A model generated the notes under the pieces. The model searched no databases. It saw nothing but the letters and a program-made list of their open reading frames with translations, and was not told the origin of the DNA. A stretch of DNA of 64,000 nt from Methyloceanibacter methanicus (GTDB taxonomy: Bacteria > Pseudomonadota > Alphaproteobacteria > Rhizobiales > Methyloligellaceae), in the NCBI RefSeq assembly GCF_001723285.1, contig NZ_LPWG01000013.1, positions 1 to 64,000 of the forward strand. The letters are read 5' to 3'. Shown in pieces: positions 37,247 to 39,838 of this stretch; within the stretch, counting starts at the first letter, position 1; each line of letters begins with the position of its first letter. Made by a program: the position numbers and the translations under genes.

Positions 37247-37260
37247 TAGGACGATATTCC
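37247..37260. promoter_or_regulatory. Left copy of the interrupted palindromic site
   Basis: TAGGACGATATTCC, 14 bp identical to the right copy at 39823-39836. Eight of the bases (37251-37258) are the duplicated target of the transposon. It sits upstream of the DUF6477-like gene. Confidence 0.55.
37251..37258. other. Target-site duplication, left (ACGATATT)
   Basis: Identical to 39827-39834, directly outside the right inverted repeat. Eight bases is the known duplication length of the IS1595 family. Confidence 0.9.
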
Positions 37261-37282
37261 CATTTATATGGATGACAAAGCA
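37259..37282 (+). repeat. Left inverted repeat of the transposon
   Basis: Begins CCCATTTATATGG and continues ATGACAAAGCA. It matches the right end at 21 of 24 positions. The ATG of the first passenger frame lies inside it. Confidence 0.88.
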
Positions 37283-37510
37283 GATAAGAGCGAGTTAGAT
37301 TCGGACCTGCGTGACAGGCTGGTTGCTTACGATTGTGAGCGTCTGAAGATTGCTGCTTCGTGGTTAGATCGCTGGGCGAATGGCGACCATGAATCTCTAG
37401 CCGTTGAACTCGGGATCGAGGACCAGGACGAGATGTTTACTTCTCTGCCGGTTCTGAAGAAGGCGGTTGAGTTTCTGGCTGGAAGCCTTGAGACCAAGCG
37501 TGGAGGGTGA
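37268..37510 (+). CDS. Passenger protein 1, hypothetical (80 aa)
   Basis: A small acidic helical protein (MDDKADKSELDSDLRDRL, ASWLDRWANGD, VLKKAVEFLAGSLETKRGG). Its first seven codons are encoded by the left inverted repeat, and no ribosome site precedes the ATG, so translation would depend on a message starting in flanking DNA. Its last 74 bp overlap the convergent HEPN-like gene. The family is not recognised. Confidence 0.45.
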   Translation: MDDKADKSELDSDLRDRLVAYDCERLKIAASWLDRWANGDHESLAVELGIEDQDEMFTSLPVLKKAVEFLAGSLETKRGG

Positions 37511-37982
37511 ACGGAGCAAGCCTTTGTAGAAGGTTGTTTGTCTCAATCAACAGCGTCTCCAAATCCTTCTTTTCGACCTTGAATCTTCGGTAAAGCGTTC
37601 TAGGTCCGTCCTGCTTGTAATGGATGCCTGACGCGGCGGTGTCAGAGCCACTGAATCCAATAACCGCATGGATGAGTGGGTTTCGTTTTTGGGACAGCGC
37701 TACTGCGTCGTCCGCGAACTTGAGAGCCCTGGATTGCCTTCCAGATACCTCCGGAAGCGTTTGGTATAGCTTTCTCCAGAGCTTGATCTTCCGCTTAAAT
37801 GATACCGGAATTTCACGTGGTCGAATGTCTGCTGCCGAAGGTAGCGCGGCCAGTTCAACGAGCACATATTCCAAGGTACTATCGAGCCGACCCCACAAGA
37901 CGGCGCAACGACCAAAGAGTTCGTAGAACTCTGGCGCATCTGGCGGTTCCGTCCCGAACGGTTTTAGGTACAGCTTGAACAT
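37437..37982 (-). CDS. Passenger protein 2, helical protein with HEPN-like R-x4-H motif (181 aa)
   Basis: Mostly helical: FGRCAVLWGRLDSTLEYVLVEL, then FKRKIKLWRKLYQ, then FADDAVALSQKRNPLIHAVIG, then KKDLETLLIETNNLLQRL. The motif R-N-P-L-I-H fits the R-x4-6-H active-site pattern of HEPN ribonucleases, in the usual place at the end of a long helix. The rest cannot be matched by eye, and RNxxxH also occurs in non-nuclease relatives. It starts on the same CATG as the divergent 54-aa frame. Confidence 0.55.
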   Translation of the reverse strand: MFKLYLKPFGTEPPDAPEFYELFGRCAVLWGRLDSTLEYVLVELAALPSAADIRPREIPVSFKRKIKLWRKLYQTLPEVSGRQSRALKFADDAVALSQKRNPLIHAVIGFSGSDTAASGIHYKQDGPRTLYRRFKVEKKDLETLLIETNNLLQRLAPFTLHAWSQGFQPETQPPSSEPAEK

Positions 37983-38145
37983 GGCTAAACCCCGAAAATC
38001 TCAAGACGAGAAAGACCTAGAGAAGCTGGCCAAGACGCTCTTGTCCACGCCTCCTAAGCCGCGTGAATCAGACAAACGTCACGACACAAAAGAGAACTCA
38101 AGACGCGACGCAGGCCAGCCGCGTAGAGCCAAAAAACAGGGGTAG
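37981..38145 (+). CDS. Passenger protein 3, very small basic protein (54 aa)
   Basis: MAKPRKSQDEKDLEKLAKTL leads into a Lys/Arg-rich tail ending RRAKKQG. It is likely disordered apart from one helix. Its ATG overlaps the start codon of the divergent HEPN-like gene (shared CATG), and its stop lies three bases before the ATG of the membrane protein gene, suggesting co-translation. No known function. Confidence 0.5.
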   Translation: MAKPRKSQDEKDLEKLAKTLLSTPPKPRESDKRHDTKENSRRDAGQPRRAKKQG

Positions 38146-38148
38146 CAT

Positions 38149-38649
38149 ATGCTGTCGGACCAACAGTTGCAGTTTGCAATTGATGACGCGCGGCAACGCC
38201 ATGCCGCCCTCACTGAACTCATCTATTTTACAGACTCGCAGGCAATGGCATTGCTCCGGCTCTACAGCACCGTTGGCATCGCTATGGCGTCGGCATCGGC
38301 GGCCCTATTTGCTGCTGACCCGCCGGTTTCGACTGCTCTTGCTTGGGCGTTGGCAAGTGCGACGGTAGTGTTGGTTATAGGTGCCGTTTTTTGTTGGCTC
38401 GCGATGCAAACCCTTCAGGTTAGTTTGCCGGGGCGTGGCGCTGAGTTTTGGCTTTGGGCGATGGATGCCAGGGTTACGGCTGCTTCGGCCTTCACCAAAT
38501 ATCTCGAGAACTTAGAGAAAGAGAGCGTGTGGAATCGCGAGGTTAATGACACCACGTCCCAACATCTTATGGCGGCCAAGATAGCGGGAGTTTTGGCGCC
38601 GGCGTTTGCCTTTGGTGCAGGACTCCTAGCGGCACAATACGGCGGCTAG
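38149..38649 (+). CDS. Passenger protein 4, three-helix membrane protein (166 aa)
   Basis: A soluble N-terminal helix (SDQQLQFAIDDARQRHAALTE), two close transmembrane helices at about 36-57 and 62-85, a cytoplasmic helical stretch, and a third membrane helix at about 143-163. This layout is like small effectors such as SLATT or Pycsar membrane proteins, but no signature confirms it. It follows the 54-aa frame by three bases. Confidence 0.6.
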   Translation: MLSDQQLQFAIDDARQRHAALTELIYFTDSQAMALLRLYSTVGIAMASASAALFAADPPVSTALAWALASATVVLVIGAVFCWLAMQTLQVSLPGRGAEFWLWAMDARVTAASAFTKYLENLEKESVWNREVNDTTSQHLMAAKIAGVLAPAFAFGAGLLAAQYGG

Positions 38650-38765
38650 CGGTCCTTCTCCTTTTTGCCCTGCGGTTTCGGGGACACATTAGCCCCCTTC
38701 TTTCCTCGCCAATCAGCCGGTGGTTCAGGCGCCTTGTCCTCATCCTTCTCCTGTTCGTCGGTCAT
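38646..38765 (-). CDS. Passenger protein 5, very small charged protein (39 aa)
   Basis: MTDEQEKDEDKAPEPPADWR is followed by GKKGANVSPKPQGKKEKDR. A GGAGA site eight bases upstream supports translation. It is unlikely to fold. The stop overlaps the convergent membrane gene by four bases. The family is not recognised. Confidence 0.4.
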   Translation of the reverse strand: MTDEQEKDEDKAPEPPADWRGKKGANVSPKPQGKKEKDR

Positions 38766-38803
38766 TCTGTTTTCTCCAACATAGGAAATGCCTCGCCTTC
38801 TGC

Positions 38804-39757
38804 TTAGGCGTTTTTGGCTTCACCAATCCGCCGATAGGTCAGACGGCGGCCAGCGGCCTGTTCGATGATCTTGGCGGTGCGCTCCGTGTCTTCGACACCG
38901 AGTCCCGAGCGATTATTGTAGCGGAAATCGAACTCTGCAACGTAGCGGTGTAAATGCGCTTCTCCACAGTGCTGGTAGACCCCTTTCATGCCGCGCTTGA
39001 AGATCGAGAAGAAGCCTTCGACCGTGTTTGTGTGGGTATCACCGCGAACGTACTCGTTGGCGGTGTGGCGCACCGTTTTGTGCCCTGCGAACTCTTTTCC
39101 GACTTCCGTGTAGAGGCGGCTTTCATCCGTGTTCAGAACTGTATCGCGTGACACGTTGCGAACGATGACTTCGCGGACATTCTCAGCGGTCGCGTGCTGG
39201 ACGTGGAACGTGCGGGACTTACCGCCGCGCTCGACAAGGGAAACAACGGCGCGCTTGCCACCGGGACCAGCCTTGCCCCTTTTGGTGTAGGGACGGCCCT
39301 TGCGTTGCTTTGAGGGCAGCGGCGTTTCGCGCTTGCCGAAATAGGTTTCGTCAACTTCGACGGTCTCACCGCCACCGCCCATAGGGCCGGATTTGTCGTT
39401 GCTCATTGCTTCGCGGATGCGATGCGAGAGGAACCAAGCCGACTGGTAGGTGATGCCAAGAACGCGGTGCAGTTGGTGGGCGCTAATGCCCTTCTTGCTG
39501 GACGCCATGAGGCGCATAGCCAGGAGCCACTTGTTTAGTGGGATCTTGGAACGCTCCATGACGGAGCCTGTCGTGACAGTGAATTGCTGGCGGCAATCGT
39601 TGCACTGGTAGACGCCGGGACGATGGGCTTTGCCCTTCAAAGGGGTCACAGAGAATGACCCACAATGAGTGCAGTGCGTGCCGTTCGGCCAACGCTGCAA
39701 TTCCAACCATTCGCGAGCCTTATCAGGGTCTTGGAAACGAGGGTCTGTGAGGTTCAT
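38804..39757 (-). CDS. IS1595-family transposase
   Basis: 318 residues. The N-terminal zinc ribbon is CTHCGSFS and CNDCRQQFTVTTGSVMERS, then a helical region, then an ISXO2-like DDE domain with VEVDETYFGKRE, LNTDESRLYTEVG and HTNTVEGFFSIFKRG. The start MNLTDPRF has GGGAG upstream; the frame also opens at an ATG in the right inverted repeat (39817) without a ribosome site. It catalyses movement of the surrounding element. Confidence 0.93.
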   Translation of the reverse strand: MNLTDPRFQDPDKAREWLELQRWPNGTHCTHCGSFSVTPLKGKAHRPGVYQCNDCRQQFTVTTGSVMERSKIPLNKWLLAMRLMASSKKGISAHQLHRVLGITYQSAWFLSHRIREAMSNDKSGPMGGGGETVEVDETYFGKRETPLPSKQRKGRPYTKRGKAGPGGKRAVVSLVERGGKSRTFHVQHATAENVREVIVRNVSRDTVLNTDESRLYTEVGKEFAGHKTVRHTANEYVRGDTHTNTVEGFFSIFKRGMKGVYQHCGEAHLHRYVAEFDFRYNNRSGLGVEDTERTAKIIEQAAGRRLTYRRIGEAKNA

Positions 39758-39802
39758 CGGCTTTGCTCCCGTCCGTACCCTTGACAAATGGGGACTGACA
39801 TA

Positions 39803-39826
39803 TGCTTTGTCAACCATATAATTAGG
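39803..39826 (-). repeat. Right inverted repeat of the transposon
   Basis: On the minus strand it begins CCTAATTATATGG and continues TTGACAAAGCA, matching the left end at 21 of 24 positions. Confidence 0.88.
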
Positions 39827-39838
39827 ACGATATTCCTA
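39823..39838. promoter_or_regulatory. Palindromic site upstream of the DnaA-domain-like gene
   Basis: TAGGACGATATTCCTA, arms TAGGA and TCCTA. The first four bases come from the transposon end and the rest from the target, so the insertion rebuilt the site. It lies 27 bp before the start codon of the downstream gene, where an autoregulatory operator would be expected. Confidence 0.5.

Follow-up and report, generated by a model that had tools for sequence, protein, structure and literature searches.

An IS1595-family transposon lineage with cargo as the rule, often around a divergent gene pair with a shared start

We analyzed a 64,000-nucleotide stretch of the Methyloceanibacter methanicus genome (the window; contig NZ_LPWG01000013.1, positions 1 to 64,000), which contains an intact 2,568-bp cargo transposon of the IS1595 family (ISXO2-like) at positions 37259–39826. 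Its lineage within the IS1595 family, known here mostly from Alphaproteobacteria, has cargo as the rule: among 71 delimited elements, none is a bare insertion sequence (IS). Insertion sequences with passengers are usually seen as exceptions, and passenger-bearing IS1595 members are known; a 2009 paper by Siguier, Gagnevin and Chandler reportedly concerns passenger genes in this family, as its title suggests. The lineage described here shares with such members the transposase domains and 8-bp duplications, but differs from them in carrying cargo in every delimited relative, in a hallmark small basic protein (54 amino acids (aa) in the window; p54) and, often, in a HEPN-like partner (181 aa; p181) whose start codon overlaps that of the small-protein gene head-to-head in the four bases CATG. 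We propose, with a probability of about 0.5, that this cargo-transposon lineage carries a regulated RNase-type (toxin- or defence-like) module on the divergent pair.

The delimited element and its relatives

An end scan found 21 of the 24 terminal bases identical between the inverted repeats and an exact 8-bp target duplication on both sides of the element, in agreement with the preliminary description, which had placed the duplications at 37251 and 39827. The element is flanked by a 14-bp direct repeat, TAGGACGATATTCC, at 37247 and 39823. Because the target reads TAGG-8-CCTA and the element ends are CC..GG, the placement of the duplication is ambiguous from this copy alone; relatives with other flanks are consistent with a duplication of 8 bp. 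The whole element has one match in its own 3.14-Mb genome (G000) and is single-copy there. The preliminary description had suggested looking for uninterrupted sites in related genomes, and such a site, reading TAGG..CCTA and lying upstream of a conserved gene, was found in the congeners G001, G004, G005, G013 and G015, the remaining congeners not all being resolved. The uninterrupted site is indirect evidence that the element moved in the past.

The transposase is full length; it matches Pfam DDE_Tnp_IS1595 (2.3e-35) and Zn_ribbon_IS1595 through an N-terminal zinc ribbon (5.4e-9), and its match to NCBIfam IS1595 (NF033547; 3.4e-60) lies above the cut-off; a full ISXO2-type transposase had been claimed on the letters alone, and the claim holds. 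The zinc-ribbon residues C49, C52, C72 and C75 are shared by at least 97% of the 62 transposases aligned, and PMC8101967 gives a zinc ribbon for every IS1595 group but IS1016. The motifs DETYFG, NTDE and NTVEGFF, present by eye, are comparable to the catalytic pattern that PMC12561309 reports for an IS1595 relative. As judged by eye, the likelier start of the protein is MNLTDP at 39757. The sequence features of IS1595 membership are present: an ISXO2-like DDE domain, an N-terminal zinc ribbon, an 8-bp duplication and terminal inverted repeats. The initial reading of an intact IS1595-family transposon holds.

Relatives were taken from 80 genome contigs kept for the closest transposases and from genomes of the genus, family and class. 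To be accepted, an element needed at least 18 of 24 inverted-repeat matches, 8 of 8 duplication bases and a stretch of less than 400 bp upstream of its transposase. Of the scan results, 14 were discarded, including two duplicates (L023, L030). The 71 accepted elements comprise 59 from 58 of the 80 contigs, seven from the class sample, four from the genus and the one in the window; 22 contigs had no accepted ends. Some scanned loci gave no ends, in part owing to re-fetched loci having flanks of only 1.5 kb. The delimited elements span 1,623–4,627 bp (median 2,477), of which 690–3,685 bp (median 1,554) lie outside the transposase match; for comparison, the IS1595 elements tabulated for Ralstonia in PMC7371123 span 700–1,287 bp. 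Cargo is general among the close relatives of this element and not a peculiarity of it, being present in 71 of 71 delimited elements. In a set of 113 cargo frames with a length of 110 aa or more (for one element, L014, an opposite-strand frame was chosen by hand), Pfam identified 22 families at E ≤ 0.01, including DUF3800 (10 frames), PIN (4), NYN (2), PIN_10 (2) and Panacea (2); cytosine methylase, Vsr, GmrSD, HEPN, HEPN_Cthe2314 and others were matched once each.

Table 1. Features of the transposon and its insertion site, in positions of the window
Feature	Positions	Strand	Remarks
IS1595-family (ISXO2-like) cargo transposon	37259..39826	none	Inverted repeats and 8-bp duplication; uninterrupted congener site; single genome match
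Left target duplication, ACGATATT	37251..37258	none	
Right target duplication, ACGATATT	39827..39834	none	Target is TAGG-ACGATATT-CCTA
Left inverted repeat	37259..37282	+	21/24 identical to right repeat
Right inverted repeat	39803..39826	-	From the end scan
80-aa frame	37268..37510	+	ATG inside inverted repeat; opposite-strand overlap with 3' end of HEPN-like gene
181-aa HEPN-like protein (p181)	37437..37982	-	Probably Csx1-like, by its relatives; motif R100-N-P-L-I-H105
CATG	37980..37983	none	Start codons of p54 and p181 overlapping head-to-head
54-aa small basic protein (p54)	37981..38145	+	Type A, with LxTPPKP motif and Lys/Arg-rich tail; lineage hallmark
166-aa membrane-like protein (p166)	38149..38649	+	3 bp downstream of the 54-aa gene; accessory cargo
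39-aa frame	38646..38765	-	Unsupported
Transposase	38804..39817	-	337 aa from ATG inside repeat; Pfam DDE_Tnp_IS1595, Zn_ribbon_IS1595; NCBIfam NF033547

The divergent pair and its shared start

Relatives of p54, gathered by an iterated hidden Markov model search from the 54-aa frame with lenient inclusion, occur in 50 of the 71 delimited elements. In 34 of them the protein is of type A: the gene lies opposite in strand to the transposase, and its product carries the LxTPPKP motif and a Lys/Arg-rich tail. The other 16 elements have the gene on the transposase strand, 13 encoding a type B protein (KFxEAARELxxDExxxFDxxLxKIAKxPPP) and two an A-like one. The type-A profile matches 32 of the 297 genomes of the order, the source genome included, and IS1595 transposase sequence lies within 1.5 kb of the type-A gene in 27 of 30 loci, convergent every time; the type-A small protein is therefore a marker of the transposon lineage. 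With three loci identical to seeds set aside, type A adjoins IS1595 transposase sequence in 24 of 27; L219, L226 and the loci whose edge truncates the transposase have partial matches. Transposase sequence was likewise nearby in 13 of 18 type-B loci. The 54-aa protein has no match in Pfam or NCBIfam and hence belongs to no recognized antitoxin family. The 13 sister elements marked by type B are L017, L041, L050–L052, L055, L064, L070, L072, L080, L089, L102 and L106, and their partners include, by Pfam, DUF3800 (L050), PIN (L070, weak) and DUF1829 (L106).

An iterated search from the 181-aa frame recovered HEPN-like relatives in 23 of the 71 elements, each encoded on the same strand as the transposase, with a type-A small gene running divergently from it. 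The preliminary description had named a HEPN-motif protein, and R100 and H105 are indeed invariant across the 23-member alignment (10–21% identity to p181) and again in a set of 47 proteins (9–21% identity), at least 90% of which also have G24, W30 and E34. The search profile favours the RxxxxH motif itself, so that independent support comes from strand, position and the CATG junction; a similar motif is seen by eye in partners outside the profile (L035, L037, L043, L107). The AlphaFold2 model of p181, built from 23 sequences, has a mean pLDDT of 88 and predicts helices at residues 16–45, 62–75, 77–104, 138–158 and 160–166, with R100 and H105 at the end of the third helix, beta strands next and then further helices. 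In HEPN proteins, according to PMC3710099, an Rx4-6H motif stands at the end of helix 3 and the residue after the arginine is typically polar (N, D or H), and the Csx1 family has a beta-hairpin directly after the motif. In p181 the motif is R100-N101-...-H105, with the polar residue in place, and in the predicted model a helical bundle has it ending helix 3. A PADLOC Csx1 model matches 11 of the 47 relatives at E ≤ 0.1 (best 7.2e-5), and other Csx1 and CARF-HEPN models match one to three of the 47 each. We take p181 to be HEPN-like and probably Csx1-like, its membership of the HEPN superfamily being likely.

By itself, p181 has one match in 296 other genomes of the order; its profile matches 67 of 297 genomes, the source genome included, at roughly 80 places, of which 39 were studied with flanks. 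We considered whether the HEPN-like gene always marks an IS1595 element and rejected this: five of the 39 loci are delimited elements, 12 lie near partial-transposase fragments and 22 have neither. At 11 of the 39, in six genera (L162, L164, L166, L171, L173, L174, L179, L180, L183, L184, L193), a frame with the IS1595 zinc ribbon and a helix-turn-helix (HTH) region, without the DDE domain, lies 0.5–1.5 kb from the HEPN-like gene, whose motif there is RNEFNH, RNELIH or RNELTH. This combination resembles a pair that was domesticated from an element of this kind.

The start codons of the two genes overlap in CATG. In 21 of the 34 type-A elements, that of the window included, the ATG of the small gene overlaps in this way with the ATG of a partner frame 100 aa or longer. 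The same junction occurs at 14 of 27 other type-A loci, where starts were searched over a slightly wider range, and the partner has R[N/H]xxxH in 12 of the 14; the control, other frames of 45–110 aa in the same elements, has a CATG junction in 32 of 1,083 cases (3.0%). Upstream of the starts in the 21 pairs, the mean pairing to CCUCCU is −4.45 kcal/mol for the partner and −3.46 for the small gene, with −1.86 for the control, and this Shine–Dalgarno (SD)-like pairing is stronger than that of random stretches (p = 1.5e-5 and 6e-4, respectively); a strong signal is missing from some of the 21. With SD-like pairing upstream of both starts, each presumptive ribosome site therefore lies inside the first codons of the other gene. 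Unless they are leaderless, the p54 and p181 messages would be mutually antisense at their 5' ends.

The partner can differ between related elements. In that of the congener G009, the transposase is 64% identical over 237 aa with a stop and the small protein 60% identical over 40 aa; its partner, of 251 aa, has no detectable similarity to p181 and starts at the same CATG.

Functional readings of the pair

The core of the cargo is the divergent pair of a small basic, lineage-specific protein and a HEPN-like protein found in most type-A elements. In the proposed module, the HEPN-like protein would act as a metal-independent endoribonuclease, cleaving RNA of the cell or of phages in response to some trigger, and the small protein, together with the antisense overlap of the 5' ends, would either hold it in check or regulate both genes. 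Such a pair could pay for the element through toxin/antitoxin-like retention or through defence against phages and mobile elements, and the partner slot may have been re-filled over time with other nuclease-like genes. More tentatively, and with the odds somewhat against it, we consider that the small protein and an exchangeable partner, HEPN-like or other, constitute a new kind of transposon core in which the conserved CATG serves as both regulatory switch and exchange border. The element would then be a compact vehicle for RNase-type genes of defence or addiction that can replace one another; either gene would encode in its first codons the ribosome-binding site of the other, and the antisense relation of the two starts would be part of the switch. 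Should the HEPN-like protein prove to be a toxin or an RNase for defence, the elements, with a median of about 2.5 kb, would count as self-mobile units of defence or addiction of very small size. The shared CATG raises a directly testable question of mutual antisense control, and the small-protein profile offers a search handle for unknown nuclease-like genes across many genomes.

Several results weigh against an RNase-type module. The nuclease assignment itself finds no backing from p181 alone: searches of Pfam, PADLOC and NCBIfam with this protein gave no HEPN family. For the 47 relatives, the Pfam matches are all weak and mixed (HEPN_Cthe2314, 5; WD40_alt, 5; HTH_30, 4) and NCBIfam gives no HEPN family. 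An hhalign comparison with an alphaproteobacterial PF05168 set (10 hits) gave no match, that set, mostly lacking RxxxxH by eye, being a poor yardstick, and PF18730 gave one sub-threshold match in 96 genomes. Foldseek searches of the p181 model against PDB and viral sets returned nothing at E ≤ 0.001 (best viral E 4e-3); weak motif-aligned PDB matches, to ApeA at E 0.53 and to a HEPN toxin at E 0.63, ranked under designed proteins and were gone with the larger profile. The lack of a HEPN match for p181 itself, the negative hhalign and Foldseek searches and the weak, mixed Pfam matches speak for an alternative in which p181 would be another helical RNA- or protein-binding domain with the same motif. 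We regard this as improbable, however, given the invariant R and H at the HEPN-defining position, their fold context and the Csx1 matches among the relatives. The domain content of the lineage, which on raw counts appears rich in nuclease, toxin-antitoxin and defence domains, speaks for the module. Also to be counted against it is the co-variation of its parts. In Mantel tests on 20 pairs, distances of the small protein correlate slightly better with those of the transposase than with those of the HEPN-like partner, all correlations being weak (transposase–small protein 0.22, p = 0.045; small protein–HEPN 0.13, p = 0.08; transposase–HEPN 0.12, p = 0.12).

That co-variation fits the main rival, in which the pair, and chiefly the small basic protein, belongs to the transposition machinery or its regulation and is a core of the lineage, not cargo of benefit to the host: the Lys-rich tail would bind the AT-rich ends or the target, and the partner gene would tune transposase expression. 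It also agrees with the presence of type A beside the transposase at 24 of the 27 non-seed loci, whatever the partner, with the G009 element, where the small protein stays with the transposase though the partner has changed, and with RGRP, which we take to be an AT-hook-like motif, in two of the 34 type-A members (L035 and L060). We nevertheless consider this role rather unlikely, since 21 of the 71 delimited elements have no detected small protein, the 16 small proteins on the other strand are mostly of different sequence, and the HEPN-like family lacks a nearby IS1595 transposase in 22 of 39 loci. Random capture, which would leave the small protein, the HEPN-like gene and the transposon functionally unconnected, would be compatible with the scatter of cargo classes over the transposase tree (62 of the 71 transposases; those with stops or shorter than 281 aa were left out). 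Four cargo classes require 19 changes on this tree, against a shuffled mean of 33.2, and the type-A+HEPN class alone requires 13, against 16.5, with 16 of 500 shuffles as low; this class is therefore only loosely clustered. Against capture by chance stand the strand, position, CATG junction and paired ribosome-site signals that recur across different elements, which already make it very improbable.

The proposed RNase-type module resembles known systems in part. Tn3-family transposons, as described in PMC7157771, carry RNase-type (PIN, HEPN) genes beside their transposition genes through several acquisitions, and offer a comparison in mode of working: a transposon family that repeatedly carries such genes. 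According to the same text, the Tn3 pairs have recognized antitoxins, and their single HEPN case is a co-directional HEPN-MNT pair; here, by contrast, divergent genes overlap at their starts and an MNT is lacking. HEPN-MNT type II toxin-antitoxin systems share with our pair the HEPN RNase motif and an adjacent partner gene. They differ in having a nucleotidyltransferase as partner instead of a small basic protein and in being co-directional, the latter being another point that speaks against the module as proposed. With genes that are divergent, not co-directional, and no recognized antitoxin family, type II membership is therefore not claimed. The Csx1/Csm6 CARF-HEPN RNases of type III CRISPR are linked to the pair through the Csx1 model matches to relatives of p181; p181 differs in being transposon-borne and, at 181 aa, in leaving no room for a CARF sensor domain. 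Activation by a ligand is frequent among Csx1-like proteins.

Accessory frames and insertion sites

All five passenger frames of the preliminary description are open, and p54 and p181 are those supported as genes beyond openness. That description had also suggested an undescribed cargo module. The open-access literature yielded no description of it, a provisional statement as ISfinder and subscription papers were outside the scope; the five frames do not form one module, the p54–p181 pair being the recurrent part. The expectation that the cargo would be found with such transposases elsewhere was likewise borne out for this pair, but not for p166 or the 80-aa and 39-aa frames, of which none has a relative among the 70 further delimited elements. 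The 80-aa frame is probably not a gene. p166 has two hydropathy segments above threshold and, of 239 other genomes of the class, six gave a weak match to it; its single-sequence AlphaFold2 model (pLDDT 57.5) was left unused. Judging from its position, it may be co-transcribed with p54 as an operon partner. A tblastn search of 72,556 plasmid records with p181 and p166 found no match.

The flanks of the duplication favour AGG...CCT(A) across 70 elements, the three left bases at 56–57% each and the two right C at 63–64%. In G016 the homologous site holds a different element, whose transposase is 59% identical, and another (transposase 57% identical) lies in the same intergenic region of G009, with homologous genes on both sides. 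Across three congeners, one intergenic region was entered by three IS1595 elements that are distinct and differ in cargo, and all of them sit in a TAGG-8-CCTA site (window 37251–39834; L015 3181–5747; L016 1954–4150). Two different delimited IS1595 elements also lie about 40 bp apart on one contig (L048, 3599–6220 and 6259–7881).

ATGG(A/T)TGACAAAGC occurs inside a repeat in this copy (37268, 39817), in that of G009 (the L014 ends) and in one of G428 (L197, 408–2458), and frames are therefore able to begin inside the repeat; by eye, most relatives differ at that position (for example TATACTTGAC) and lack that ATG. Finally, the right end, read outward, has TATAAT by eye at 39817–39822, directly before the duplication, and may provide a −10 box for the gene that follows; the element interrupts a palindrome upstream of this gene.

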